This document shows positions 28,321 through 47,913 of a stretch of DNA of 54,385 bases, piece after piece. Location of the stretch: the NCBI GenBank assembly GCA_016208255.1, contig JACQYK010000029.1, positions 1 through 54,385 of the forward strand. The letters are read 5' to 3'. The stretch is from Deltaproteobacteria bacterium (GTDB taxonomy: Bacteria; Desulfobacterota; RBG-13-43-22). The stretch's first letter is position 1; every line of letters begins with the position of its first letter. Position numbers and translations under genes: made by a program. The notes under the pieces were generated by a model. It had not been told where the DNA came from and made no database searches. It saw only the letters and a list, made by a program, of their open reading frames with translations.

Positions 28321-28689
28321 ATGTCTCGGAGAGATGCATGGAAAGAAGTCAGGGAAAGTATCCAGATGAGTTCCGGGCAAACTGGCAAAAACATCGAGGA
28401 ACGGGAAAAAATGCCTGAAAAGGCCTGCGGGGTGTGTCAAAACTTTTTCGAAAACGCCTATAATTCGGATGGACGCGGTTCATGCCGGATTTTAAAAATG
28501 GGGTCGAATATTAAATCCAGCCCACCGGTTTTAGTCACCAGCGGAGAAGTGGGTTTAATTACCTACATTAATACCGACGCTACCCATTGCCCGCACTTTT
28601 TAAAGATGGAGATGATTGACCACGATTTGGGAGAAATTTCAGATCCACGCTATCGCCGGGTCCACCGTATCATGGAAAAAAGTAAATAA
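28321..28689 (+). CDS. Small [4Fe-4S] subunit of fumarate-adding glycyl radical enzyme (BssB-like)
   Basis: This 122-residue protein has four cysteines at 36, 39, 55 and 90 (CX2C-X15-C-X34-C) in a context like ACGVCQNFF and THCPHFLK. The small beta and gamma subunits of benzylsuccinate synthase bind one low-potential [4Fe-4S] cluster each through four cysteines in a HiPIP-like fold. This subunit and the next share that spacing logic, so I assign it as one of the pair. It may control access to the active site of the large subunit. It is longer than BssB because of a 30-residue charged N-terminus. A strong AAGGAGG lies six bases before the ATG. Which of the two is beta is inferred from length only. 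Confidence 0.72.
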   Translation: MSRRDAWKEVRESIQMSSGQTGKNIEEREKMPEKACGVCQNFFENAYNSDGRGSCRILKMGSNIKSSPPVLVTSGEVGLITYINTDATHCPHFLKMEMIDHDLGEISDPRYRRVHRIMEKSK

Positions 28690-28819: not shown

Positions 28820-29008
28820 ATGCCGACCTGTGTTGAGTGTCAATCTTTTTTTCCCATCGAAGAGGAGCCCGGCCGGGGTGATTGTGTCAGAAAAGGCGTA
28901 GACGCCAGACAGACTTATTATTCCGCCAGAGTTGTTTCCCAGGATAAAGACGCGGCCCGATGTGATTCTTTTCAAAAAAAGGTAATACCCAAGGAAGCTT
29001 TACATTAG
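28820..29008 (+). CDS. Small [4Fe-4S] subunit of fumarate-adding glycyl radical enzyme (BssC-like)
   Basis: This 62-residue protein has cysteines 4, 7, 22 and 48 (CX2C-X14-C-X25-C): MPTCVECQSFFPIEEEPGRG, DCVRKG and RCDSFQKK. Size and pattern match the gamma subunit of benzylsuccinate and alkylsuccinate synthases, which binds a [4Fe-4S] cluster and is needed for stability of the alpha subunit. It stands directly before the alpha subunit gene (37 bp gap), the BssC-BssA order known from bss operons. AAAGGGGGG precedes the ATG. In the 130-bp gap to the previous gene, CCTCCTCA and TGAGGAGG form a hairpin that could adjust expression. Confidence 0.75.
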   Translation: MPTCVECQSFFPIEEEPGRGDCVRKGVDARQTYYSARVVSQDKDAARCDSFQKKVIPKEALH

Positions 29009-29045: not shown

Positions 29046-31541
29046 ATGGCTGAGTCAGCTTTAAGTGAGAAAATACAAGAATTTGAGGACAAGCAGCAGT
29101 GGTGGTGGGCTGCGGAAGCAAAAAGGTCCAAGCGACTTGATTATTTAAGAAAGGCGGTTTGGAGAAAAGGATCCACGGGCGGCGCCCCGATCTCACCGAT
29201 CAAACTTGATCTTGAACCCGCCTCACGAAGAATCGAATTCTACAAGCAATTCAAAAACGAACCGCTTCCCATAAGAGTGGCGAAAATGCATTCGGCCATG
29301 TGGGATTCGGATCAGATTTACATCGTTGATCAATCCCAGATAGTCGGTTCAAAAACACCGAGTCCGTCCACCGAAGGCTGGGAGGGGGCCGGTGGGATGG
29401 GGAATGCCGCCGTTTACAACTACCCGGAAATCCTTCCGGAACCCCTGGAGGAATCCTTAAAAGTGGTACATGACGTGGGCCAGTTCTGGGATCAGGAAGG
29501 CGATGCCATGACCAGACTCGTCAGCGGGGGTGACCCGGAGGATATGGCCAAGTTTCATTCCGGGGCCATCGCCTGGGGAAGCCTGATCGGAGGCTATTCG
29601 GGAAAAAACTATGAATATTTTATGACCGGAAAACGGGCCTTTGAAGATATCATCCGAGAAATTGATGAAAAAATTGCTGACGCCGAAGAACAAACGCAGG
29701 GCGTTTCCGGTCCGGATATTCTCCCCCTCTATAATAAACTAATCAATTGGGAAGCGATGAAACTCTCCCTTGAAGCCGGAATCAAGTGGGCCAGAAGATA
29801 TGCCCGGCTGGCCAGGATCATTGCCGAAAATTTTGAGACCGACCCCAAACGCAAGGAGGAACTCTTACGCGTGGCTGAAACCTGTGAGCGGGTGCCGGCT
29901 AAACCTCCGCGAAACCTTCAGGAATCCTTGCAGTATGATCATTTCATTCAGGTTCTGGCCAGAAAAGAACAGGTGGAAGGGGCCTGGCCGGCCCGTCCGG
30001 ATTACTATCATGGCCCGTATTACGACCAGGATGTGAATATCGAGAAAAACATCACCAAGGAAGAGGCCCTTGATCTGATCGGGGAATTCTTGATCCGGGC
30101 CTATGATATGCCGGTGGTGCTGGCCATGGGTAAATGGGTCAGGGAAGGACTACAGGGCATAGCCGGTACCTGGGTTTGGACTTTAGGCGGCGTAAAACCG
30201 GATGGCTCGGATGCCTGCAACGAGATGACCATCGCCTTAATGCAGGCCGCCAGACTGGTCCGGACGCCTAACCCGACCTTTGCCTTCCGCTGGCATCCCA
30301 AAGTCAAAGAGGAAGTCATGAGGGAAATCTTTGAGTGCATCCGCCATGGGCTTGGCTACCCGGCCATGAGAAACGATCCGATCCTGATCGCCAATTCTAT
30401 GCACTGGCACCGGCATCCGATTGAAGAGGCCAGAACCTGGGTGCATCAGGCCTGTATGTCCCCCTGCCCGACGACCAAACACGGCACTCAACCCATGCGC
30501 ATGGCCTCCGCTACCGCCAACTGCGCCAAGATTATGGAATATGCCCTGTGGAACGGCTACGATCACGTGGTCAACATGCAAATGGGGCCGATGACCGGTG
30601 ACGCCCGTGAGTTTACTGATTTTGAGCAACTTTTTCAGGCCTGGGTCAAACAGATGGAGTGGTTATTCAGTCTGTTGACGCGGACGGTTAACTATGCCAG
30701 GTATGTTCAAAGCGATGTGGCGCCAAGGCCCTTCTTGTCCGGTATTTCCCAGAGGGCCGTGGACAGCGGACTCGATGTCATGAGACCGGACGGTGAACGC
30801 GGCAATGCCTGGATCACCGCCTTCACCTGGGGCGAGAATCCGGACAGCCTGACGGCCATCAAGAAGCTGGTCGTTGACGATAAAAAATACACCATGGCCC
30901 AGTTGATGGAGGCGATGGAAGCCAACTGGGACGGTTATGAAGAGATGCGTTTGGATTTTGTAAACGCACCGAAATGGGGTAATGACGATGATTACGCCGA
31001 CAACATGATGCTGCGCTGTCTGAGAGAATGTGCCCGGTTTTCCAGGGAGCTGAAGGATCCCAGCGGCAACAGCTGGCCGATTTTGCCGGAAAACGTCAGC
31101 GGCAATATCCATTATTCGAGTATTGTGCGGTCCCTTCCCAACGGCCGAAGGCAAGGAGATGCCCTTTATGACGGCGGCATATCCCCCGGCCCGGGTCTGG
31201 ATAAAAAAGGTCCCACGGCGGTATTGAAGTCTTGTGGGAAAATCGATCATGTCACCGATGGACGGGCCTTTTTACTCAACCAAAGGCTTTCACCCACCCA
31301 GCTTCAGGGTGAAAAAGGTTACCAATTATGGCGCGCTTATATGAAGACCTGGGCTGATCTCGGCATCGATCATGTTCAGTTCAATATGGTTTCGGACGAG
31401 ACCTTGCGGGCGGCTCAAAAAGATCCGGAAAAATATTCAGAAGTCATCGTCCGGGTTGCCGGATACAGCGCTCACTTTGTTGATATAAGCCGAAAAACTC
31501 AGGATAATATCATTCAGAGAACCATACAGGGTATCGGGTAA
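29046..31541 (+). CDS. Fumarate-adding glycyl radical enzyme, catalytic subunit (alkyl-/benzylsuccinate synthase type)
   Basis: This 831-residue glycyl radical enzyme is assigned to the X-succinate synthases, which add a hydrocarbon C-H across the double bond of fumarate without oxygen. The C-terminal radical motif RVAGYSAHFVDIS places the radical on Gly806. The thiyl residue is Cys470 in QACMSPCPTTK, and Arg485 in QPMRMASATANC corresponds to the fumarate-binding Arg of benzylsuccinate synthase. Distances Cys-Arg (15) and Cys-Gly (336) equal those of BssA (Cys493, Arg508, Gly829). Pyruvate formate-lyase would have adjacent active cysteines, absent here. It follows two small Fe-S subunits; the activase is encoded at 39224-40189. 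Mutase, ligase and carboxyltransferase traces downstream favour an alkane-type substrate (AssA/MasD), but BssA- or NmsA-like specificity cannot be excluded by eye. Confidence 0.87.
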   Translation: MAESALSEKIQEFEDKQQWWWAAEAKRSKRLDYLRKAVWRKGSTGGAPISPIKLDLEPASRRIEFYKQFKNEPLPIRVAKMHSAMWDSDQIYIVDQSQIVGSKTPSPSTEGWEGAGGMGNAAVYNYPEILPEPLEESLKVVHDVGQFWDQEGDAMTRLVSGGDPEDMAKFHSGAIAWGSLIGGYSGKNYEYFMTGKRAFEDIIREIDEKIADAEEQTQGVSGPDILPLYNKLINWEAMKLSLEAGIKWARRYARLARIIAENFETDPKRKEELLRVAETCERVPAKPPRNLQESLQYDHFIQVLARKEQVEGAWPARPDYYHGPYYDQDVNIEKNITKEEALDLIGEFLIRAYDMPVVLAMGKWVREGLQGIAGTWVWTLGGVKPDGSDACNEMTIALMQAARLVRTPNPTFAFRWHPKVKEEVMREIFECIRHGLGYPAMRNDPILIANSMHWHRHPIEEARTWVHQACMSPCPTTKHGTQPMRMASATANCAKIMEYALWNGYDHVVNMQMGPMTGDAREFTDFEQLFQAWVKQMEWLFSLLTRTVNYARYVQSDVAPRPFLSGISQRAVDSGLDVMRPDGERGNAWITAFTWGENPDSLTAIKKLVVDDKKYTMAQLMEAMEANWDGYEEMRLDFVNAPKWGNDDDYADNMMLRCLRECARFSRELKDPSGNSWPILPENVSGNIHYSSIVRSLPNGRRQGDALYDGGISPGPGLDKKGPTAVLKSCGKIDHVTDGRAFLLNQRLSPTQLQGEKGYQLWRAYMKTWADLGIDHVQFNMVSDETLRAAQKDPEKYSEVIVRVAGYSAHFVDISRKTQDNIIQRTIQGIG

Positions 31542-31570: not shown

Positions 31571-31652
31571 TGTTACTTGTTACTTGTTGCTCGTTGCTCG
31601 TTTCTGGTTATAACGAGTAACCAGCAACGAGTAACCCGTAACAGGCAACCCG
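31571..31652. repeat. Intergenic repeat (GTTGCTCG / CGAGTAAC type)
   Basis: TTACTTGTTGCTCGTTGCTC and TTTCTGGTTATAACG on the left pair roughly with AACGAGTAACCAGCAACGAG on the right. It shares words with 20366-20438 and 40200-40285. Confidence 0.6.
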
Positions 31653-31729: not shown

Positions 31730-31960
31730 ATGAAGTGCACAGAATGTGGCCATGAAGCCACTCCTGATAAATTCCGTTATTTATACAATGCCCGGATTGA
31801 TGCCTCGGTCAGTATGAGGCAATGCCCCAATTGCATGGAAGTGCTGGCCGTTGACGAACTGAAACGGGAAGTCCTTAAAAAGGTGGCGCTGGGTGAAGCG
31901 CCCTGGGGTAAATCGGCCGGCATCGAAGGCCTCGCCGAAGATGCGGTCAGAACGGCCTGA
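31730..31960 (+). CDS. Small zinc-ribbon/rubredoxin-like protein of the synthase operon
   Basis: This 76-residue protein has two CxxC pairs (Cys3/Cys6 in MKCTECGHEA and Cys32/Cys35 in RQCPNCMEV), enough for one zinc or iron. The C-terminal half is a short charged helix. It directly follows the catalytic subunit and has a strong GGAGG before the ATG. Some alkylsuccinate synthase operons encode an extra small metal-binding subunit beside the beta and gamma subunits, and this may be its counterpart. That is an inference from context. Its N-terminal layout (CxxCG, Ala, Phe, Tyr-Leu, CPxC) is echoed by the TGA-containing protein at 40355, so the two are probably paralogues. Confidence 0.65.
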   Translation: MKCTECGHEATPDKFRYLYNARIDASVSMRQCPNCMEVLAVDELKREVLKKVALGEAPWGKSAGIEGLAEDAVRTA

Positions 31961-36023: not shown

Positions 36024-36959
36024 TTGCAAAATCGAATTACTGAGATACTGGGAACCAGATATCCTCTGATTCTCGGACCGATGCGCCTCATTACCCTGGG
36101 AGAAATGGCCGCGGCGGTCTCCAACAGCGGGGGGTTCGGTCAGATCGGCGCCTCCGGGGCTTCGGCCGAGCTGTTGATAACGGAAATACGAAAAGCCAAA
36201 GATCTGACCAGCCGTCCTTTCGGAGTAAATATACCCATTTACAGACCTAACGCCTTTGAAGCCCTGGAAATCGCCATTGAAGCAGGTATCAGGACTATCA
36301 CCACCAGCGCCGGAGATCCAGGCCGGATGATCCGACGGATCAAAGAAGCCGGAATGAAAGTTCTACACAAAGTCTCGACGGTTAAAATGGCCCTAAAGGC
36401 GCAGGAAGCCGGGGTGGATGGGGTGATCGCCACCGGGTTCGAAGCTGGAGGGCATGTCGGCCGGGAAAGTATCACTACCTTTTGTCTGGTCCCTTTATTA
36501 GTCGAAGCCCTGGAAATACCTGTGGTTGCGGCTGGAGGGATTGGAGACGGCCGAGGACTTCTGGCTGCCTTTGCCCTGGGAGCGGAAGGCGTCGAAATGG
36601 GAACACGTTTCGTGGCCACCCGCGAGTGCTCAAGCCCCGACTGGTATAAAGAGTCCATACTCCACGCCCGGGACAGTTCGACCATGATCCTGTGAGAGGG
36701 CATGCCGATCCGGGTGCTTAAGAATGAAAAAGCTGAGAGGGTTGCCCACCCCGATAAGGTCCGGGAAAACAACGACCGGGCGGGCGGTGAGGAGTCTTAC
36801 GTGGCCGGCGACGCCGATGAAGCCATCATGCCGGCCGGGCAGGTCGCCAGCCTGATAAAGGAACTGAAAGGAATTTCCGATGTCTTCCCCGATATGATCA
36901 GGGAAGCCGAAACAATTGTCACCGGACTGAACCGTTTTTTCAAGGGGGATACCTTATGA
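36024..36959 (+). pseudogene. FabK/nitronate monooxygenase-like flavoprotein, interrupted by in-frame TGA
   Basis: The frame starts at a TTG with AAGGAG upstream (LQNRITEILGTRYPLILGPM) and reads as an FMN-dependent TIM barrel of the 2-nitropropane dioxygenase/enoyl-ACP reductase II family. The hallmarks are GVDGVIATGFEAGGHVGRES, VVAAGGIGDGRGLLAAFALG and GVEMGTRFVAT. Codon 224 (36693-36695) is TGA. The same frame then continues as EGMPIRVLKNEKAERV, the family's usual next segment, to a stop at 36959. The total, 311 codons, is the normal family length, and the true stop overlaps the next ATG by 4 bp. Either a recent nonsense change (CGA to TGA would be one step) or recoding explains it. I favour decay. 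The intact enzyme could act on an enoyl or nitro compound. Confidence 0.75.
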
Positions 36960-39223: not shown

Positions 39224-40189
39224 ATGACCCACCCAGTGCTGATTACCGATATTCAAAAATTTGCCGTCAATGACGGCCCCGGGTTCCGGACCAATGTATT
39301 TCTCAAGGGATGCGGGCTGAAATGCCGGTGGTGCCATAACCCGGAAACCATTAATCCGGCTCCTGAAATATATTGGAAAAACAGGCTGTGCCTGCAATGC
39401 GGCCAATGCTTGGAGGTTTGCCCCAATGATGCCGTCAATCCACCGATAGCACCGGAAGAAAGCCGGGATGAAAACTCCACCTATCATAAGATTATCAGAG
39501 ATAAGTGCGACCGATGTATGAAGTGCGTCGAAGCCTGTCCCTATGGGGCGCTGATTATTGTCGGAAAACCCCTTTCCCTGGAGGAAATTCTTGATGAGGT
39601 CATGCAGGACAAACTTTTTTATGACAATTCCGGCGGCGGGATGACCTTAAGCGGCGGAGAGCCAACGGCCCATCCGGAATTTGCGAACATGCTCCTTTCC
39701 GGCGCGCGGGACAGAGGTCTGCATACTTGCCTAGACACCAATGGCTTTTGTGACTGGAAGGTATTAAACCTGCTTGTTGAAAATGTGGATGTCGTTCTGC
39801 TTGATCTGAAGCATTTGGAGGCCCAGGTGCATAAACAGGGCACCGGGGTAAGCAATGAAATTATTCTTAACAATCTTTCCTTATTATCGGAATCCGGCCG
39901 GGAAATTTGGCTAAGAATTCCCGTTATTCCGGGATTCAATGACTCGATGGCCTTTCATAAGGCGGCCTCGGAGTATATCGCCGGTCTTCCACGACCAGTG
40001 GCCCGTGTGGATTTAATTCCCTTCCATAATTACTGCCAGGATAAATATAAATGGCTGGGTCTGGACTGGGAACTCAAGGATATGGAACCGATTGAACCCT
40101 CATTCCTGGAGATTCCGGCTGATTGGTATAGGGAGAAAGGGTTGTTTACGACCGTCGGCGGGTCCGGTTTTGAAAAGAGACCCGAATAG
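39224..40189 (+). CDS. Glycyl-radical enzyme activating protein (radical SAM activase)
   Basis: This 321-residue enzyme uses S-adenosylmethionine to abstract a hydrogen from the glycine of the partner enzyme. The radical SAM cluster motif CGLKCRWC gives Cys30, Cys34 and Cys37 (CX3CX2C). An inserted ferredoxin domain follows with CLQCGQCLEVCP and CDRCMKCVEACP, which is typical of activases for BssA, AssA, HpdB and related enzymes but missing from the short pyruvate formate-lyase activase. SGGGMTLSGGEPTAHPEF is the SAM-binding GGE motif. It is the only activase in the window, so it is assigned to the synthase alpha subunit at 29046, although 7.7 kb apart. CCAAGGAGATTTA precedes the ATG. Confidence 0.9.
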   Translation: MTHPVLITDIQKFAVNDGPGFRTNVFLKGCGLKCRWCHNPETINPAPEIYWKNRLCLQCGQCLEVCPNDAVNPPIAPEESRDENSTYHKIIRDKCDRCMKCVEACPYGALIIVGKPLSLEEILDEVMQDKLFYDNSGGGMTLSGGEPTAHPEFANMLLSGARDRGLHTCLDTNGFCDWKVLNLLVENVDVVLLDLKHLEAQVHKQGTGVSNEIILNNLSLLSESGREIWLRIPVIPGFNDSMAFHKAASEYIAGLPRPVARVDLIPFHNYCQDKYKWLGLDWELKDMEPIEPSFLEIPADWYREKGLFTTVGGSGFEKRPE

Positions 40190-40199
40190 GTAGACTATA

Positions 40200-40285
40200 G
40201 ATTACAGGTAAATCGTTGCGGGTTGTTTGATGCTTGTTTCTGGGAGAAACGAGTAACCAGGAACGAGTAACGGGCAACGGAGAAG
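40200..40285. repeat. Intergenic repeat (GTTTCTGG / CGAGTAACCAGGAACG)
   Basis: TTGCGGGTTGTTTGATGC and TTGTTTCTGGGAG on the left, AACGAGTAACCAGGAACGAG on the right, form a degenerate hairpin of the same family as 20366-20438 and 31571-31652. Confidence 0.55.
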
Positions 40286-40354: not shown

Positions 40355-40693
40355 ATGGATCTAACCTGCCATCAATGCGGTTTTACGGCGGATCATGTTG
40401 AGTTTGCCTATTTGTGCAAAACCGGCTGACCGGCCTGCGGAGAAGCCGATCTCCGCAAGTGCCCCAGGTGCGGGGTAACCACTTTATTTTCACGGGCCGA
40501 AGCCCTGGAAAACGAAGATGAACAAATGAAGGAGCTCTCCAAAAGACTGGCGGCCATATCTAAAAATGACGACCCGGTCCGGTTGCAGGAGGCAAAAGTC
40601 ATTATCATAAAATTGCGCAATATAAATATGCGCTGGAACATCCCCCAGTTAAGTGATTTTTTGAAAGAGCGCCAGCGGGAGCTTTTTTTCTAA
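40355..40693 (+). CDS. Zinc-ribbon protein with in-frame TGA: candidate selenoprotein (or decayed gene)
   Basis: From the ATG at 40355 (GAGAGG upstream) the frame runs 112 codons to TAA at 40693 with a single TGA as codon 25. It reads MDLTCHQCGFTADHVEFAYL, CKTG, TGA, PACGEADLRKCPRCGVTT, then a charged helix ending KERQRELFF. The TGA sits exactly where a cysteine would complete a third CxxC pair (x-P-A-C), so selenocysteine would give UxxC. Six bases downstream lies an 8-bp hairpin resembling a bacterial SECIS. The N-terminal ribbon resembles the 76-residue protein at 31730. It precedes the MoxR-like gene. If it is not Sec, then it is a TGC-to-TGA nonsense change. Other TGA codons in this window act as normal stops. 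Confidence 0.5.
40436..40457 (+). promoter_or_regulatory. SECIS-like hairpin 6 nt after the in-frame TGA
   Basis: Perfect 8-bp stem TGCGGAGA (40436-40443) and TCTCCGCA (40450-40457) with loop AGCCGA, which has a G in its first two positions as bacterial SECIS loops do. The loop starts 14 nt after the TGA, slightly closer than the usual 16-37 nt, so the match is suggestive and not conclusive. Confidence 0.4.
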
Positions 40694-40755: not shown

Positions 40756-41604
40756 ATGGGTAATTTTGATGCGGGATTAGCCGTACCCAAAGCGGAAGAA
40801 AATTTTTTTTTGCCGGAGAACGTCATTCAAAACTTGGAAAGGGTGACCACTTTAGCCAAGCGGCATCCGATCAACATCCTGGTAACCGGAAAGCAGGGTT
40901 GCGGAAAATCAACCCTGGTCAGGCAGTTTGCCGCCAGAAATGACCGGCCTCTGGCTGTTTTTCAAATCGGTATTCTCTCGGAACCGGGTCAGTTATTCGG
41001 AGAGCATCGCTTAAAAGAAGGCGAGACTTTTTATCAGAAATTTCTTTTCCCCCAGGCCATTCAAACACCCGGCTGTGTCATTCACCTGGAGGAGATCAAC
41101 CGCCCGGAAAATCCCAAAGCGCTTAATATGCTTTTTTCTGTACTGGCCGAAGACCGAAAGGTCTGGACGGATGAACTGGGGCTGGTGAAGGTGGCGGATG
41201 AAGTCGTTTTTTTCGCCACCCTCAATGAGGGGGAAGAATTCGTGGGAACGGAAATGCTGGACGCGGCTTTACGAGACCGGTTTTATGTCACCATGCTGGA
41301 TTATCTTCCGCCGGAAGTTGAAACCAATGTTTTGCATTTGAAAACGGGAATCAGCGAGTCCGATGCCCTGACCATTGTCAACATTGCCAACAAACTCAGG
41401 AACAATACCCAGGAACCTATTGTCGTCTCAACACGCCATACGCTTATGATAGCCGAAATGGTGGCGGTTGGGGCTTCAACCCGGGAGGCCTTCATCAACA
41501 GTCTTCAGTTGAGCCGGGATATCATCGAATCGGTATTGCTATCCCTGCATGCCGAGCTGGGTATAACGGGATCGGGCCGGGGTAATGCCTTTAGAAAATA
41601 CTGA
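40756..41604 (+). CDS. MoxR-type AAA+ ATPase, copy 1 (BssE-like)
   Basis: This 282-residue AAA+ ATPase has Walker A GKQGCGKST at 45-53, Walker B CVIHLEEINR, sensor 1 FFATLNEG and an arginine finger in DAALRDRF. MoxR ATPases work with VWA proteins to insert metals or remodel enzymes. In toluene-degrading bacteria BssE/TutH, a MoxR-like ATPase, belongs to the benzylsuccinate synthase operon, so a chaperone role for the synthase here is well grounded in context. The VWA partner follows directly. A second very similar pair lies at 45314-47913. The ATG has AAGAGG upstream. A zinc ribbon with an in-frame TGA stands 62 bp before it. Confidence 0.85.
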   Translation: MGNFDAGLAVPKAEENFFLPENVIQNLERVTTLAKRHPINILVTGKQGCGKSTLVRQFAARNDRPLAVFQIGILSEPGQLFGEHRLKEGETFYQKFLFPQAIQTPGCVIHLEEINRPENPKALNMLFSVLAEDRKVWTDELGLVKVADEVVFFATLNEGEEFVGTEMLDAALRDRFYVTMLDYLPPEVETNVLHLKTGISESDALTIVNIANKLRNNTQEPIVVSTRHTLMIAEMVAVGASTREAFINSLQLSRDIIESVLLSLHAELGITGSGRGNAFRKY

Positions 41605-41734: not shown

Positions 41735-43408
41735 ATGACCTCAGGAATTTCTGAATTCTGGCGGAAAAACGTTTCGGCCAATGAAGCCGTCGAATTGGCC
41801 AATCTGCTCCGGGCCTTGAGAAAAGTGGCCGGCCATCTTGGGCCGAACATAGGCCTGATTGAATACGCCGGCATGTCCAATAAAGCCGTCTCTGGAATTT
41901 TACTGGACCCGGAAATGGTGATAGGGGAATATCCGGTCCCTTTCCAAAAAGTGGACCATCTGGTCGGACTGGTAACCCATGAGGCCACCCACAAGATGGA
42001 ATGGAGTGACCTGGTCTGGAAACTGCTGGAGCCGGTCTTTAAAAAAATGAGCGGATTATCTTTAGTCGGTTTTCAAAAGATGATCTATACCGGCGAAGAT
42101 ATCTATGTGGATATGGTGGCCGACCAAAAAGTATTCGGGCTTTATGTTCAGCAAACGAGGGATAAAGCCCTAAAAGAAGCGGAGTCCGGTTTTCATCCCG
42201 GCAGGGAATCGGTTGAAGAATTGATCCATTTATGGTGGAAAGATCCCTATCAATCCCCAAGTCTTCAAAGTGTAAAACCCTTCTACCAGGAGCCGTTGTC
42301 GTCATTGATCCGGCTGAGTAAAGATCTGAAATCAGTCAGCCGGACCAAAAAAAGGGCCACCGACCGTTGTAAAAACAGGGCCGATCTATATAGCAGCACC
42401 TGGCAGGGAATTAAAGACCTCATCGCCCCTCTGAAAATAAATGACAAAAAACTCCTTTGGTACTCTTACAAGACTTCTTCAAAAGAAGATCAGCCTGCCC
42501 GCGCCCACCCAAGGGATCAATCCAAACCGCCTGCCTCCTCCGGTCTTTTTCAAGAGATTGAGCTGAACCTGGCCAAAAATTCAATTGAAATGACGCCGAT
42601 CATTCGTGCTATCGTCGGGTTTGACGACGAATCGGTTGTCCCTACCTCCCGCTGGGACTTTGTGATCAGTGCCCACCCGCTTATTGATCGGCGTCTGGTA
42701 TCAAGGCTCAAAGCCATTTTTCAGATCTACGCCGCTAAAAACAAGCTGGTCAGCCGCGGCCTGCAGAGCGGAAAGGTGGATCCCCGGCGGCTTTACCGGG
42801 CTCCGGTGACCGGCCGGTGTTTTTTACAAAATGACCATCTCCCCGACCTGGACTGGAATGTGACCCTTTTGATGGATGCCAGCGGTTCCATGCGTGGAAA
42901 CAAATGGCGGATGGTGGAAAATACCGTGGCCAATATTCATAAGGCCCTGACCGGTTTTCACAACCGGCTGCAGGCGTTGGCTTATTTTGAAAAAGACGGA
43001 ATTATGATGATTTCCCCCCTCATCAAAAACAACCGGGTTCAATCGGTTCCTCCCAGCGGGCTTACGGCTTCCGGCCAGGCCATCATCGCCGCCGCCTATC
43101 TCATGCCCAAAAAGAAAAAAAGAAATATCCTGATTCATGTAACGGACGGCGAGTCCAACCTGGGTTGCGATGTTCAACGAGCCATCGATTACTGCCGTAA
43201 AGAGCACATCGATCTGATAACACTCGGATGCGGCTATAAGGACCGTGAAGCCATGCGTCTGCAATACGGCAAATCGATTCAGTTCTTAGATCATTTCGGC
43301 CAACTGGCCGGCGTTATGGAGCGGCTTTTGAAATGGACCTTTCTGTATGGGAAAAAGCCTTATCTTCAGGAAGATCGGCTTTTTAATAAGTATCAAAAAG
43401 TTAAATAG
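41735..43408 (+). CDS. VWA-domain protein, partner of MoxR copy 1, with N-terminal HExxH
   Basis: This 557-residue protein has a C-terminal von Willebrand A domain whose MIDAS motif DASGSMRG starts at Asp381, followed by LIHVTDGESNLGCD-type and TLGCGYKD segments. The N-terminal half is helical and contains VTHEATHKMEW at about 79-89, an HExxH zinc-binding motif (82-86). VWA proteins of this sort form complexes with MoxR ATPases and bind the client through a metal. It follows its MoxR partner by 130 bp; the weak start context leaves the exact start uncertain. Its paralogue at 46177 lacks HExxH, so the two pairs are not redundant copies. A peptidase role is not claimed from the motif alone. Confidence 0.8.
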   Translation: MTSGISEFWRKNVSANEAVELANLLRALRKVAGHLGPNIGLIEYAGMSNKAVSGILLDPEMVIGEYPVPFQKVDHLVGLVTHEATHKMEWSDLVWKLLEPVFKKMSGLSLVGFQKMIYTGEDIYVDMVADQKVFGLYVQQTRDKALKEAESGFHPGRESVEELIHLWWKDPYQSPSLQSVKPFYQEPLSSLIRLSKDLKSVSRTKKRATDRCKNRADLYSSTWQGIKDLIAPLKINDKKLLWYSYKTSSKEDQPARAHPRDQSKPPASSGLFQEIELNLAKNSIEMTPIIRAIVGFDDESVVPTSRWDFVISAHPLIDRRLVSRLKAIFQIYAAKNKLVSRGLQSGKVDPRRLYRAPVTGRCFLQNDHLPDLDWNVTLLMDASGSMRGNKWRMVENTVANIHKALTGFHNRLQALAYFEKDGIMMISPLIKNNRVQSVPPSGLTASGQAIIAAAYLMPKKKKRNILIHVTDGESNLGCDVQRAIDYCRKEHIDLITLGCGYKDREAMRLQYGKSIQFLDHFGQLAGVMERLLKWTFLYGKKPYLQEDRLFNKYQKVK

Positions 43409-43809: not shown

Positions 43810-45300
43810 ATGGGATCCAAAAAAAGCCAATTCAGTGTGGTACCGGATCAGGACCGTATTTCTTGGAGGATTAAACTTTCCTTCGGCCTAGGACAGTTCG
43901 GCGAGGGCGCCAAGTCCAATGCCTTCAATTTTTTTCTGTTGTTTTACTATACCATCGTTTTAGGGCTTTCCGGCACACTGGCCGGCACCGCCCTGCTTAT
44001 CGCCCTCCTGTGTGACGGTTTCTCCGACCCCTTAATGGGATCTATCTCCGATGCCAGCAATTCCCGATGGGGCCGACGGCATCCCTTTATGTATATTGCC
44101 GCCATACCCTTTGGTGTCTGTTTTTTCCTTGTCTTTTCTCCTCCTGCGGGCCTGGGACAGATCCCGCTGTTCCTGTGGCTCATGGTCCTATCCATTCTGT
44201 GCCGAGCGGTATTCATGACCATGTATACCGTGCCCCACATGGCGATGAACGCCGAATTGACGCAGAATTATGCTGAAAGAACATCCCTGGCCGCCTGGCG
44301 GATGATTTTCAGTAATATTGGAGGATTTCTCGTAGTCATCGGCGGTTTTTTTTATTTCTTCCGTTCAGGACCGAAATATTCAAACGGACAGTTGAATCCT
44401 ATGGCCTATTCCCCCTTTGGCTTGTTCTTTGCCGTCGCCATGGTCATGGCCCTCTTGATTTGCGCCCTGGGGACCCACAGTGAAATTCCCAAGCTTCGCC
44501 GGAAGGAACACAATGTCCAACCGTTAGGATTTAGGAGAATGTTTTATGAGATAAAAAATTGCTTATGCGTCCGTCCCTTCCGGATAAAAATAATCGCCGG
44601 GATCGTATTTTCCGCCATGTTCGGAACCATGCTGGCCCTGGCCGTCGTGGCCCTGACTTATTTCTGGGGGCTGTCCCCCAAACAGGTGGGTATGGTGCTT
44701 ATGCTCGCTATCGTTTTTATTATCATCGGCGCCGTCTTTGCCCGCCCCATTTCAACCTTAATCGGAGAAAAAAGGGATACCTATATGATCGCCTTGGCCT
44801 GGTTCGCCGTCTGGACCTGCAGCAGCATCCTCCTGCGGCTGACCGACCTCCTGCCCCCCAACGGTCATTGGATTATTTTTCCTTTGGTAGCGGGAACCAA
44901 TGCCATTGCCTATGCGGCGACCGGAGTAACCTCAGCGCTGACCCCCTCCATGATAGCCGATTGTACCGATGAACATGAACGAATTTACAGCGTTCGTCAG
45001 GAGGGAATCTACTACGGCGCCCTTTCCTTATTGACCAAAGCTTCCTCCGGATTTGGGGCCTTTATGGCCGGGATCATTACCGATATTACCGGAATAAGCA
45101 AATTTGCTAAGCAGTCCATACCCGACCCCAGCGCCTTACTCGGTTTCGGATTGATCTGGGGGCCTTTGCCTTTGGTCATGGGGGCCATTGCCATTTTAAT
45201 TATCTGGAGATACGATATCGATCAGGCCCGACATAATGAAATTCTTGTCGAACTCAAGTCTCGAAATTCGTCCCTGCTTCAACCGCAACCATCAAAATAA
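43810..45300 (+). CDS. MFS/GPH-type transporter
   Basis: This 496-residue inner-membrane protein has about twelve hydrophobic helices and belongs to the glycoside-pentoside-hexuronide:cation symporter type of the major facilitator superfamily. Characteristic parts are FGLGQFGEGAKSNAFNFFLL, DGFSDPLMGSISDASNSRWG, RRHPFMYIAAIPFGV and YTVPHMAMNAELT. Substrates of the family are usually sugars, but members in degradation clusters can carry other compounds. It sits between the two MoxR/VWA pairs, an odd place for a sugar carrier, so uptake of a pathway substrate or export of a product is possible but unproven. A strong AAGGAGGG precedes the ATG. Direct repeats upstream suggest dedicated regulation. 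Confidence 0.85.
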   Translation: MGSKKSQFSVVPDQDRISWRIKLSFGLGQFGEGAKSNAFNFFLLFYYTIVLGLSGTLAGTALLIALLCDGFSDPLMGSISDASNSRWGRRHPFMYIAAIPFGVCFFLVFSPPAGLGQIPLFLWLMVLSILCRAVFMTMYTVPHMAMNAELTQNYAERTSLAAWRMIFSNIGGFLVVIGGFFYFFRSGPKYSNGQLNPMAYSPFGLFFAVAMVMALLICALGTHSEIPKLRRKEHNVQPLGFRRMFYEIKNCLCVRPFRIKIIAGIVFSAMFGTMLALAVVALTYFWGLSPKQVGMVLMLAIVFIIIGAVFARPISTLIGEKRDTYMIALAWFAVWTCSSILLRLTDLLPPNGHWIIFPLVAGTNAIAYAATGVTSALTPSMIADCTDEHERIYSVRQEGIYYGALSLLTKASSGFGAFMAGIITDITGISKFAKQSIPDPSALLGFGLIWGPLPLVMGAIAILIIWRYDIDQARHNEILVELKSRNSSLLQPQPSK

Positions 45301-45313
45301 GGAAATCCCCCCG

Positions 45314-46171
45314 ATGATCGATACCGGAAACCAATTAAAAGTCCCCAGGCCGGACCCCAATTTCTTCATTCTCAGGGAGGACCTGGAGAACCTGCAGCGA
45401 TTCAATCAGATGTCGGAAAAGCATCCGGTCAATATTCTGACTACCGGGAATCAGGGATGCGGCAAGTCCTCCCTGGTCCGGCAATTTGCCTATATCCACC
45501 AGAGGCCCATGGCCACCTTTCAGGTGGGGCTTCTGCTTGAGGCCGGTCAACTTTTCGGGCAACAGCGGCTCAAGGACGGTGAAACCTATTACCAGGAATT
45601 TTTATTTCCCAAGGCCATCCGGACGCCGGGATGTGTCATCCATCTGGAAGAAATCAACCGTTCGGAAAGTCCGCAGGCCTTAAATGAGCTTTTCAGCGTG
45701 CTTTCCGAAGACCGGAGCATATGGATCGATGAATACGGTATGATTCAAGTGGCACCGGGAGTTATATTCTTTGCCACCATGAATGAGGGGGAATCCTTCA
45801 GCGGGACGGACGAAATGGATGAGGCCCTGAAAGACCGCTTTTACCGCATTCATCTGGAATATCTCCCCCATGAGGTTGAAAGGGAAGTATTAATCCGTAA
45901 GACCCGGATCGACGGATCCAAAGCCGATCAGATATTAAAGATGGTCAATCGGATCAGGAATAATGATCAGATAAGGATAAGCGTATCGATCCGGCACAGT
46001 CTCATGATTGCGGAATTGGTGGCCATGGGGGCATCCCTCAGGGAAGCCATGATTTACAGTCTGCAAATTTCAAAAGACGCCTTGGAATCCCTGCTGCTTT
46101 CCGTTCAAGTGGAAACCGGTGAAACAGAAGTCAACCGGGCCGAATATGTTTTATACCTGAGAAATAGTTGA
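45314..46171 (+). CDS. MoxR-type AAA+ ATPase, copy 2 (BssE-like)
   Basis: This 285-residue paralogue of the ATPase at 40756 has Walker A GNQGCGKSS at 45-53, where a Ser replaces the usual final Thr, Walker B CVIHLEEINRSE, sensor 1 FFATMNEGE and the arginine finger DEALKDRF. The two copies align without large gaps. The ATG at 45314 matches the paralogue's N-terminus; the longer frame from 45236 overlaps the transporter gene and is unnecessary. Its VWA partner starts 6 bp after the stop. Copy 2 may serve a different enzyme, for example the mutase or another Fe-S or B12 client, whereas copy 1 would serve the synthase. That is an inference. Confidence 0.85.
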   Translation: MIDTGNQLKVPRPDPNFFILREDLENLQRFNQMSEKHPVNILTTGNQGCGKSSLVRQFAYIHQRPMATFQVGLLLEAGQLFGQQRLKDGETYYQEFLFPKAIRTPGCVIHLEEINRSESPQALNELFSVLSEDRSIWIDEYGMIQVAPGVIFFATMNEGESFSGTDEMDEALKDRFYRIHLEYLPHEVEREVLIRKTRIDGSKADQILKMVNRIRNNDQIRISVSIRHSLMIAELVAMGASLREAMIYSLQISKDALESLLLSVQVETGETEVNRAEYVLYLRNS

Positions 46172-46176
46172 AGAGA

Positions 46177-47913
46177 ATGGAAGCAAAATCTTCTATCCCG
46201 AAAGCGTATTCAAAATTCTGGCGAATTAACCGTTCAAACCGCGAAGCGACGGAACTGGCCCTGGGTCTGAGAGCCGCCAGGAAGGTTGCCGGCCATATCG
46301 GCAGAAATGTCAAACCGGTTTTTTGGAAAGGGATGGCTGAAAACGAGAGCCGGTTTATCCTTTTGGATCCCAACCTGATAAAAGGGAGATATCCGATACC
46401 GCACAAAACGTATGATCTTTTGGTGGGCCAGGTGGTTTTGGAGGGGTTGTCGGCCATAGAGTTTCAGGAGTGGGTCAAAGAAAAAACCCTGAAAAGACTT
46501 TCCGGAGTCGACGAACAAACTCGGCCCTATATCGAGCCTATGGTCAGAGGGGCCGAAAATATTTATATCAACCAACTGGCCAAAAACCAAATCTGGTCTT
46601 TTTACCTGATGGATTATTTTTCCTATATCCTCTCCCGGAATTTTCGGGACCCTGATTTACCGCCCACACCGGAAAGCGTTTCCGACCTCTGGCAACAAAA
46701 ATCTATTTTGAAGCAGGTTTCTGAAAAACACCATCCTTATTATGAAGATCTTCTCGACACTCTTGAAGCTTATACTGACCGGATCCGGTCGATCGCCTGG
46801 CTGCCGGTCATGAGTCAAAGGCGGGAGGCCAGGATAAAACTCTACCCGGAGATGTGGCAGGAGATTGAAAAAATTATTTCCCGCTGGGAAGGCTTTCCTC
46901 CGAATCCGGGGGCGGTAAACTGGTATGATGAAAACGGTCCCCAAGGGTATCCGGATTTAAAAGAAAATGAAGAAAGGGAAGACGAGGGCGACCCAACAGT
47001 TACCGTTGAGGACATCGGGGGGGGCCTTGACCCCAAATTGGCGGAAGACGTCAGTGTCATTTTAGATGAAAAAGCCCCCCTTGTTTTAAATTCCGCCGTC
47101 GCCGTAGATGAACCCGGCGCCCAGCCCATGGAGACCCGGATAGAAAAAGGACAGGTTCCTGCGGATATGGCCCCTGATGAGGTTCAGGTCCGGCGAATGC
47201 GGAACCTGTTTAAAAAACAGGAGCTTTTAATAAGACAGTTAAGGCGAAGGCGCCTTCGGCGAGGGCTGGCGGAGGGAAAACTGGACGCGCTACGGCTTTA
47301 TCGGGCACCGGTGGATGGAAAAATCTTTAAACAAAAGCAAATCCCCGGGCCTGATCATCTCTGGCAGATCTGCATTGTGGCTGATGCCTCGGCCTCGATG
47401 AGCGGAAGAGAGGAGCCGGCGGAGGGAATAAAGCGGTTAGGCCGCCCCTGGGAGATTGCAGAAAAAAGCTTTGTTTCCCTGGCGGCAGCCGCCCGGGGAA
47501 CTGGAAATCTGCTGGATATTTATGCCTACCGCGCCGAAAGAAATGTCTGCCTTCTAACTCAATTGCATGATGGGAAAAACCTTTATTCCGTTTCCCCTTC
47601 CGGTCGAACGCCGTCGGGGCAGGCCATTATGGCCGTTGGAACCCTGCTCAAGAAAAAATATAAGAACAGCATTATCGTTCATATAACGGACGGAGCGGCC
47701 AATTGCGGAGCAGGCCTGGGAACGGCCCTTGATTTCTGCCGAAGACAAAACATCGAGGTCTTTACCCTGGGCTGCGGCTGCAACCGGCCGACCAGAGATT
47801 TTTTAAAGGAATTTTTCCCTCCCGGTCATCTGTATTTTTTAGAAAGCATCCATTTTCTGGCCGATGGCCTTGAACAATTATTGAGGCAAAAGATACTGGG
47901 TTCGTTCAAATAG
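46177..47913 (+). CDS. VWA-domain protein, partner of MoxR copy 2
   Basis: This 578-residue paralogue of the VWA protein at 41735 has its MIDAS motif DASASMSG starting at Asp403, followed by IVHITDGAANCGAGLG and TLGCGCNR. The N-terminal region AGHIGRNVKPVFWKGMAENE parallels that of copy 1, but where copy 1 has HEATH this one has VVLEGLSAIEF, so the putative zinc site is lost. An acidic insert (NEEREDEGDPTV and around) lies before the VWA domain. The ATG at 46177 was chosen; a TTG three codons earlier overlaps the MoxR stop. The two genes are adjacent and surely co-translated. Expected function: client recognition for the ATPase. Confidence 0.8.
   Translation: MEAKSSIPKAYSKFWRINRSNREATELALGLRAARKVAGHIGRNVKPVFWKGMAENESRFILLDPNLIKGRYPIPHKTYDLLVGQVVLEGLSAIEFQEWVKEKTLKRLSGVDEQTRPYIEPMVRGAENIYINQLAKNQIWSFYLMDYFSYILSRNFRDPDLPPTPESVSDLWQQKSILKQVSEKHHPYYEDLLDTLEAYTDRIRSIAWLPVMSQRREARIKLYPEMWQEIEKIISRWEGFPPNPGAVNWYDENGPQGYPDLKENEEREDEGDPTVTVEDIGGGLDPKLAEDVSVILDEKAPLVLNSAVAVDEPGAQPMETRIEKGQVPADMAPDEVQVRRMRNLFKKQELLIRQLRRRRLRRGLAEGKLDALRLYRAPVDGKIFKQKQIPGPDHLWQICIVADASASMSGREEPAEGIKRLGRPWEIAEKSFVSLAAAARGTGNLLDIYAYRAERNVCLLTQLHDGKNLYSVSPSGRTPSGQAIMAVGTLLKKKYKNSIIVHITDGAANCGAGLGTALDFCRRQNIEVFTLGCGCNRPTRDFLKEFFPPGHLYFLESIHFLADGLEQLLRQKILGSFK

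Follow-up and report, generated by a model that had tools for sequence, protein, structure and literature searches.

An in-frame TGA in a gene of 112 codons, here named SEL, almost certainly encodes selenocysteine (Sec), judging from the relatives of the gene in other genomes. SEL seems to represent a selenoprotein family not described before and a new component of an alkane-activating enzyme system. The gene lies in a predicted (1-methylalkyl)succinate synthase (mas/ass) cluster in the window, by which is meant the whole 54,385 nt stretch of DNA analysed (Table 1).

Table 1. Location and supporting evidence of SEL, its sequence elements and the neighbouring mas genes in the window
Feature	Coordinates	Strand	Evidence
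MasB (beta subunit)	28321..28689	+	phmmer to 9o8u_B, 2.8e-34
MasC-like (gamma subunit) small protein	28820..29008	+	position; 43-62% identity to same gene in related clusters
MasD, catalytic glycyl radical subunit of (1-methylalkyl)succinate synthase	29046..31541	+	phmmer 9o8u_A, 1244 bits, E = 0; PFL-like and Gly_radical domains
MasE (delta subunit), true orthologue, gene separate from SEL	31730..31960	+	phmmer 9o8u_D, 1.1e-29
Glycyl-radical activating enzyme, MasG/BssD-like radical SAM	39224..40189	+	TIGR02494 1e-97; BssD model 5e-79
SEL, predicted selenoprotein gene	40355..40693	+	112 codons, Sec at codon 25, TAA stop; translation; codon 25 is TGA or Cys in each of 29 full-length relatives
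Codons of the metal-site Cys pairs (C5, C8 and C36, C39) on either side of the Sec loop, rubredoxin-like N-domain	40367..40471	+	all 34 members; profile similarity to MasE
TGA predicted to be read as selenocysteine, codon 25	40427..40429	+	18 TGA and 12 TGC/TGT in 30 full-length genes; TGA also in 4 short relatives
Bacterial SECIS-like hairpin, 8-bp stem, 6-nt loop AGCCGA	40436..40457	+	sequence, folding and synonymous-codon control, covariation in Sec genes, none in Cys genes
Helical C-terminal region with three helices predicted and a conserved N-x-R-W-N motif	40493..40690	+	AlphaFold2 models, pLDDT ~90 over most; alignment
MoxR AAA+ ATPase, BssE-like position, directly 3′ of SEL	40756..41604	+	PF07728; 66-81% identical beside SEL in relatives
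VWA-domain protein, BssF-like position, likely MoxR partner	41735..43408	+	PF00092; conserved order

The SEL reading frame and its relatives

Translation of the frame bears out the initial annotation of a single TGA with a long open frame behind it: the gene begins with ATG, carries its sole in-frame TGA at codon 25, and continues for 87 sense codons to a TAA. The residues around the Sec are G-U-P-A-C-G, forming a UxxC sequence. The open frame means little alone, because 26 TGAs of the window, counting that of SEL, are followed by 80 or more open codons and preceded by 20 or more, and it was rejected as evidence by itself. The decisive evidence for the predicted Sec is comparative.

Relatives were collected by stop-tolerant whole-genome searches and a scan of named genomes, giving 30 full-length genes including that of the window. 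The pattern used in the named-genome scan contained a Cys codon and so returned Cys forms only, the Sec forms coming from the whole-genome searches. The 29 full-length relatives are 50–65% identical, and their codon 25 is TGA in 17 and TGC or TGT in 12 (the start of L090 was called one codon early, and its TGA is numbered 26). The earlier expectation of a Cys at this codon is thus upheld, with Arg, Trp or any residue besides Sec and Cys never found in the 30 full-length genes, nor TAA or TAG. The alignment has 112 columns, is almost gapless from across the Sec codon to the end, and shows invariant residues on both sides. Behind the TGA, dN/dS is about 0.07–0.17 in most close Sec pairs and 0.32 in one pair, values that place the predicted protein under purifying selection there.

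On a maximum-likelihood protein tree the Sec/Cys label requires at least three changes (bootstrap range 3–4), of which strongly supported branches force only one. The Cys-form relatives include Desulfatibacillum alkenivorans DSM 16219 (L064) and a contig labelled Dehalococcoidia (L065).

A second Sec protein, of 66–67 aa and so of MasE length, was seen in four genomes of one genus (L023–L025 and L095; G130:C8, G310:C52, G346:C1 and G422:C194), distant from the mas genes and in Sec forms only. It contains the sequence GGUHTVGSVEVRKCPRCG, ends in Cys and has its TGA as codon 25; the hairpin varies. The dN/dS comparison of these short forms involves few differences among the sequences.

The SECIS-like hairpin

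A perfect 8-bp stem begins 6 nt past the TGA, as first described, with a 5′ arm (40436–40443) of TGCGGAGA, a 3′ arm (40450–40457) of TCTCCGCA and a loop (40444–40449) in which G is the second base. Perfect stems of at least 8 bp at a SECIS-like distance follow 0.2% of the TGA triplets of the window. Published rules for bacterial SECIS (bSECIS) elements specify a stem of 4–16 bp, a loop of 3–9 nt, a G within the first two loop bases and a folding energy of −7.5 kcal/mol or lower (PMC13188914); the SEL hairpin lies within all of these, at −18.6 kcal/mol over the 39 nt after the codon. In most bSECIS elements the UGA is 16–37 nt from the apical loop, and a subset departs from the model (PMC13188914). 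The SEL distance of 14 nt falls slightly below this range, in keeping with the initial remark that the loop is somewhat close to the TGA; the range is typical rather than strictly defining, because the review gives it for most elements and describes the departing subset.

Covariation was assessed in 21 Sec sequences, made up of the 18 full-length Sec genes and three short-family members. Their stem is 86% paired, with compensatory changes at three pairs, and 15 cells are doubly changed compared to 7.1 in shuffles, with none of 500 shuffles as high. The covariation score is 0.28 against at most 0.09 in slid registers, and again none of 500 shuffles reaches it. The same stem is 63% paired in the 12 Cys genes, in which neither compensatory changes nor a predicted consensus structure was found, and folding is weaker in Cys genes than in Sec genes (p = 0.004). 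The change of residue 28 from Cys to Thr in Sec clades (TGC to ACC) is paired with a change on the opposite stem arm, and the Gly29 codon, which lies within the stem, is GGA in 16/18 Sec genes but in 3/12 Cys genes. The f30 clade has an imperfect stem in this register, with a G-G mismatch. On the evidence of these alignments, the predicted hairpin keeps its pairing by compensatory changes in the TGA genes and decays in the Cys genes.

Sec machinery

Genes selA, selB, selC and selD, named in the initial annotation as a check on the Sec assignment, are all present in the same genome. The tRNA-Sec gene selC (anticodon TCA, C31:24494) is just upstream of selA (C31:24829), and a second selA, selB and selD occur as well. 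The bin carries two selA (G000:C163 and C31) and two selD (C101 and C31), one selD having an in-frame TGA and the other lacking it; this reflects either duplication or contamination (7.5%). SelB was found in 15 of 18 genomes checked, the two Sec-form genomes lacking a match being incomplete assemblies (66% and 85%), and SelD was above cut-off in 27 of 29. Most Cys-form genomes retain both SelB and SelD, so losing the Sec machinery does not account for the Cys forms. A tRNA-Sec search of the Sec-form genome G365 gave no hit reaching the cut-off. Genomes of the f30 group (L119, L120 and L123; G310, G346, also G130) carry a second tRNA-Sec gene, with anticodon TCA by ARAGORN in G310 and G346.

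The mas/ass gene cluster

By similarity to known proteins, the window holds a complete (1-methylalkyl)succinate synthase cluster. The place of SEL beside a MoxR gene in a cluster for a fumarate-adding enzyme, recognised initially, is confirmed and is conserved in relatives, where the usual order is masG-masB/C-masD-masE-SEL-moxR-VWA, followed by genes for enoyl-CoA hydratase, CoA ligase and a nitronate monooxygenase-like protein (NMO). In most relatives, including the Cys form of Desulfatibacillum alkenivorans, SEL has masE immediately on one side and the MoxR/VWA genes immediately on the other. The window has masG immediately before SEL and masE further upstream, and in G181, an exception, SEL is apart from the mas genes. 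A cluster in L042 (G366:C11) runs masD-masE-moxR-VWA with no SEL gene between masE and moxR. Alkylsuccinates were also obtained in Escherichia coli from HxN1 mas genes, in work that is cited in PMC12358834, where no SEL-like gene is mentioned. Since the G366 cluster lacks SEL and the HxN1 genes worked in E. coli, SEL is not strictly required everywhere. A role for SEL in the mas system is very probable.

The clusters show several further features. Additional MasE-like small proteins (for example MAIVCRKCGHKGTRAEF...DSAG...) are encoded beside activase genes in L096, L097, L069 (~2952), L071 (~1320) and L021, and some clusters have three MasE-like paralogues and two activases. In the window, 45236–47913 holds another MoxR-like gene, which shares 59% identity with the first, and after it another VWA-type gene, a pair that recurs in several relatives. 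A short intergenic repeat, AACGAGTAACC, is found between mas genes at 31613–31650 and 40249–40285, with two adjacent copies at each site. The NMO gene of the window (36024–36959) is broken by a TGA at 36693–36695, with one codon missing there. This TGA, used as a negative control, was rejected as Sec; the aligned relatives have Gly, Lys or Arg at this place, not Cys. The caution first voiced over other broken frames in the window was fair.

The predicted SEL protein

Residues C5, C8, C36 and C39, together with Sec or Cys at 25, occur in 34/34 proteins (four short relatives counted). C28 is kept in all 12 Cys forms and in 11 of the 18 Sec forms. The seven Sec forms without it have a Cys at position 24 in three genomes, at 30 in three and at neither in one; in the Sec form L089, C21 is the only Cys near the Sec. 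The UxxC site proposed at the outset therefore holds for the SEL of the window and is not universal, although six of the seven exceptions have Cys 24 or 30. Movement of the second Cys among positions 28, 24 and 30 suggests a resolving thiol for the Sec.

The fold, with its CxxC...CxxC metal domain, is MasE/rubredoxin-like rather than that of the generic zinc ribbon originally assigned. Residues 3–44 match MasE by hhalign (94.6%, 6.5e-8), and a profile search of the PDB also gave MasE (E 0.003). MasE ranked first in a fold search with one AlphaFold model (probability 1.00, E 0.13) and was not among the matches to a second, deeper model; because the match did not repeat, the fold identity rests mainly on the sequence profiles. 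The Sec loop is modelled at low confidence (pLDDT ~60).

Like MasE, the delta subunit of the synthase (MASS-delta; 9o8u chain D, PMC12358834), SEL is a small protein of the same operon with a CxxC...CxxC N-domain. Unlike MasE, it is encoded by a separate adjacent gene and has a longer loop bearing Sec/Cys25. The conserved MasE tail GEAPWGKSAGIE, which contacts the glycyl radical domain, is absent from SEL, with three predicted helices in its place, and SEL is therefore a relative of MasE, not MasE itself. BSS-beta/gamma, HPAD-gamma and MASS-beta/gamma, accessory subunits of glycyl radical enzymes, are likewise small metal proteins rich in Cys, but have been described as HiPIP-like or [4Fe-4S] proteins without Sec (PMC12358834), whereas SEL has a four-Cys ribbon and a Sec. 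The genes downstream of SEL form a MoxR AAA+/VWA pair like BssE/BssF and NorQ/NorD; SEL itself belongs neither to the ATPases nor to the VWA proteins. The published gene order of bss clusters, bssDCABEF (PMC7285207), has no SEL-like gene in between. SEL is best viewed, with good though not full confidence, as a selenoprotein with a MasE-related, rubredoxin-like N-terminal half and a helical C-terminal half that serves as an accessory of the synthase.

Proposed function and alternatives

The addition of alkanes to fumarate is catalysed by (1-methylalkyl)succinate synthase, a glycyl radical enzyme. MASS-delta occupies the binding place of the activating enzyme and is proposed to control how the glycyl-radical domain opens, and its rubredoxin-like nature has been called puzzling (PMC12358834). 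MoxR/VWA pairs remodel their targets and can drive metal insertion (PMC13036017), while the function of bssE/bssF is uncertain (PMC7285207).

As a MasE-like protein with a Sec centre, encoded between masE and moxR, SEL most probably helps to activate, reduce or repair the synthase. Its likeliest role is that of a redox accessory of alkylsuccinate synthase that relies on Sec and works alongside the activase and the MoxR/VWA proteins; we give the redox mechanism a probability of roughly 0.55. It is favoured because Sec25 (or its Cys counterpart) is invariant, the four metal Cys are complete without it, and the second Cys moves. We infer that the MasE-like domain would dock beside the glycyl-radical domain, a place for which MasE competes with the activating enzyme. 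A selenol/selenenylsulfide couple of Sec25 with a neighbouring Cys (C28, else C24 or C30) would hold a thiol or metal site in the synthase or activase in its reduced state, and the helical tail may connect to the MoxR/VWA remodelling pair, the complex serving activation or repair of the synthase. A bolder version, which we offer only tentatively, has a selenol switch controlling installation or repair of the glycyl radical, SEL swapping with MasE at the activase docking site under the drive of MoxR/VWA, and the 66–67 aa Sec protein being a further selenoprotein of the same superfamily.

SEL might instead handle metal, inserting iron into MasE or the synthase or relaying metal to them together with MoxR/VWA, with Sec25 a transient ligand and not a redox switch. 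MasE binds one Fe, in a site of the rubredoxin type (PMC12358834). Metal insertion is driven by MoxR/VWA pairs (PMC13036017), NorQ/NorD acting in this way on nitric oxide reductase, and SEL immediately precedes such genes and has its own CxxC...CxxC site. However, every member already has a complete four-Cys site in C5, C8, C36 and C39, which leaves no need for Sec25 as a fixed ligand, and a shifting second Cys suits a resolving thiol better than a ligand. We consider this explanation unlikely, at roughly one in five.

Somewhat less likely again is a free-standing antioxidant, a thiol peroxidase or reductase that protects oxygen-sensitive proteins of the cluster and does not dock to the synthase. 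A redox role is ascribed to most known selenoproteins (PMC13188914), MASS-delta is reported to be oxygen-sensitive (PMC12358834), and the SEL gene of G181 is apart from the mas genes. Domain profile searches found no peroxidase or thioredoxin-type domain in SEL, however, elsewhere the gene is tightly operon-linked to masE/moxR, and the protein is related to the docking subunit MasE.

Membership of a known family is very improbable. The selenoprotein family DG (NF049953; deep-Sep, PMC12013277) resembles SEL as a small Cys-rich ribbon of Desulfobacterota with Sec/Cys exchange, and its profile matches SEL weakly (26.7 bits, E 4e-6). The score is below the curated cut-off of 130 bits, and 3/30 SEL members match the model weakly; true DG proteins (nine genomes above cut-off) are built differently, being ~172 aa long with another architecture, and the DG model misses SEL in its own genome. 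For FmdB-type zinc ribbons (TIGR02605), SEL scores 10.2 bits against a curated cut-off of 31.3. No Pfam family matched SEL above cut-off, Rfam gave nothing on the window at gathering thresholds, and SEL had no match in a plasmid collection. A 2026 catalogue of 119 prokaryotic selenoprotein families (PMC13188914) was not found to contain SEL and assigns none to a glycyl radical or fumarate-adding enzyme cluster, and no report of SEL was found in open-licence papers joining selenoproteins with alkane or succinate synthase.

That the TGA is a mutated Cys codon or sequencing error in a broken gene is hardly credible: although the NMO gene of the window is truly broken by a TGA and the bin is 7.5% contaminated, 17 further genomes share the SEL TGA at this codon, making 18 genes with selection and a covarying hairpin behind it, and TAA or TAG never takes its place.

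Significance

SEL is open to testing now, since the cultured Desulfatibacillum alkenivorans has the Cys form. A gene caller that ends frames at TGA would truncate the Sec form or fail to find it, a possible reason for its having gone unnoticed. SEL offers a handle on the reason for a rubredoxin-like subunit in alkylsuccinate synthase and on the role of the MoxR/VWA genes in mas clusters. If confirmed, it would add a selenoprotein family and tie selenium to the anaerobic degradation of oil and alkanes.
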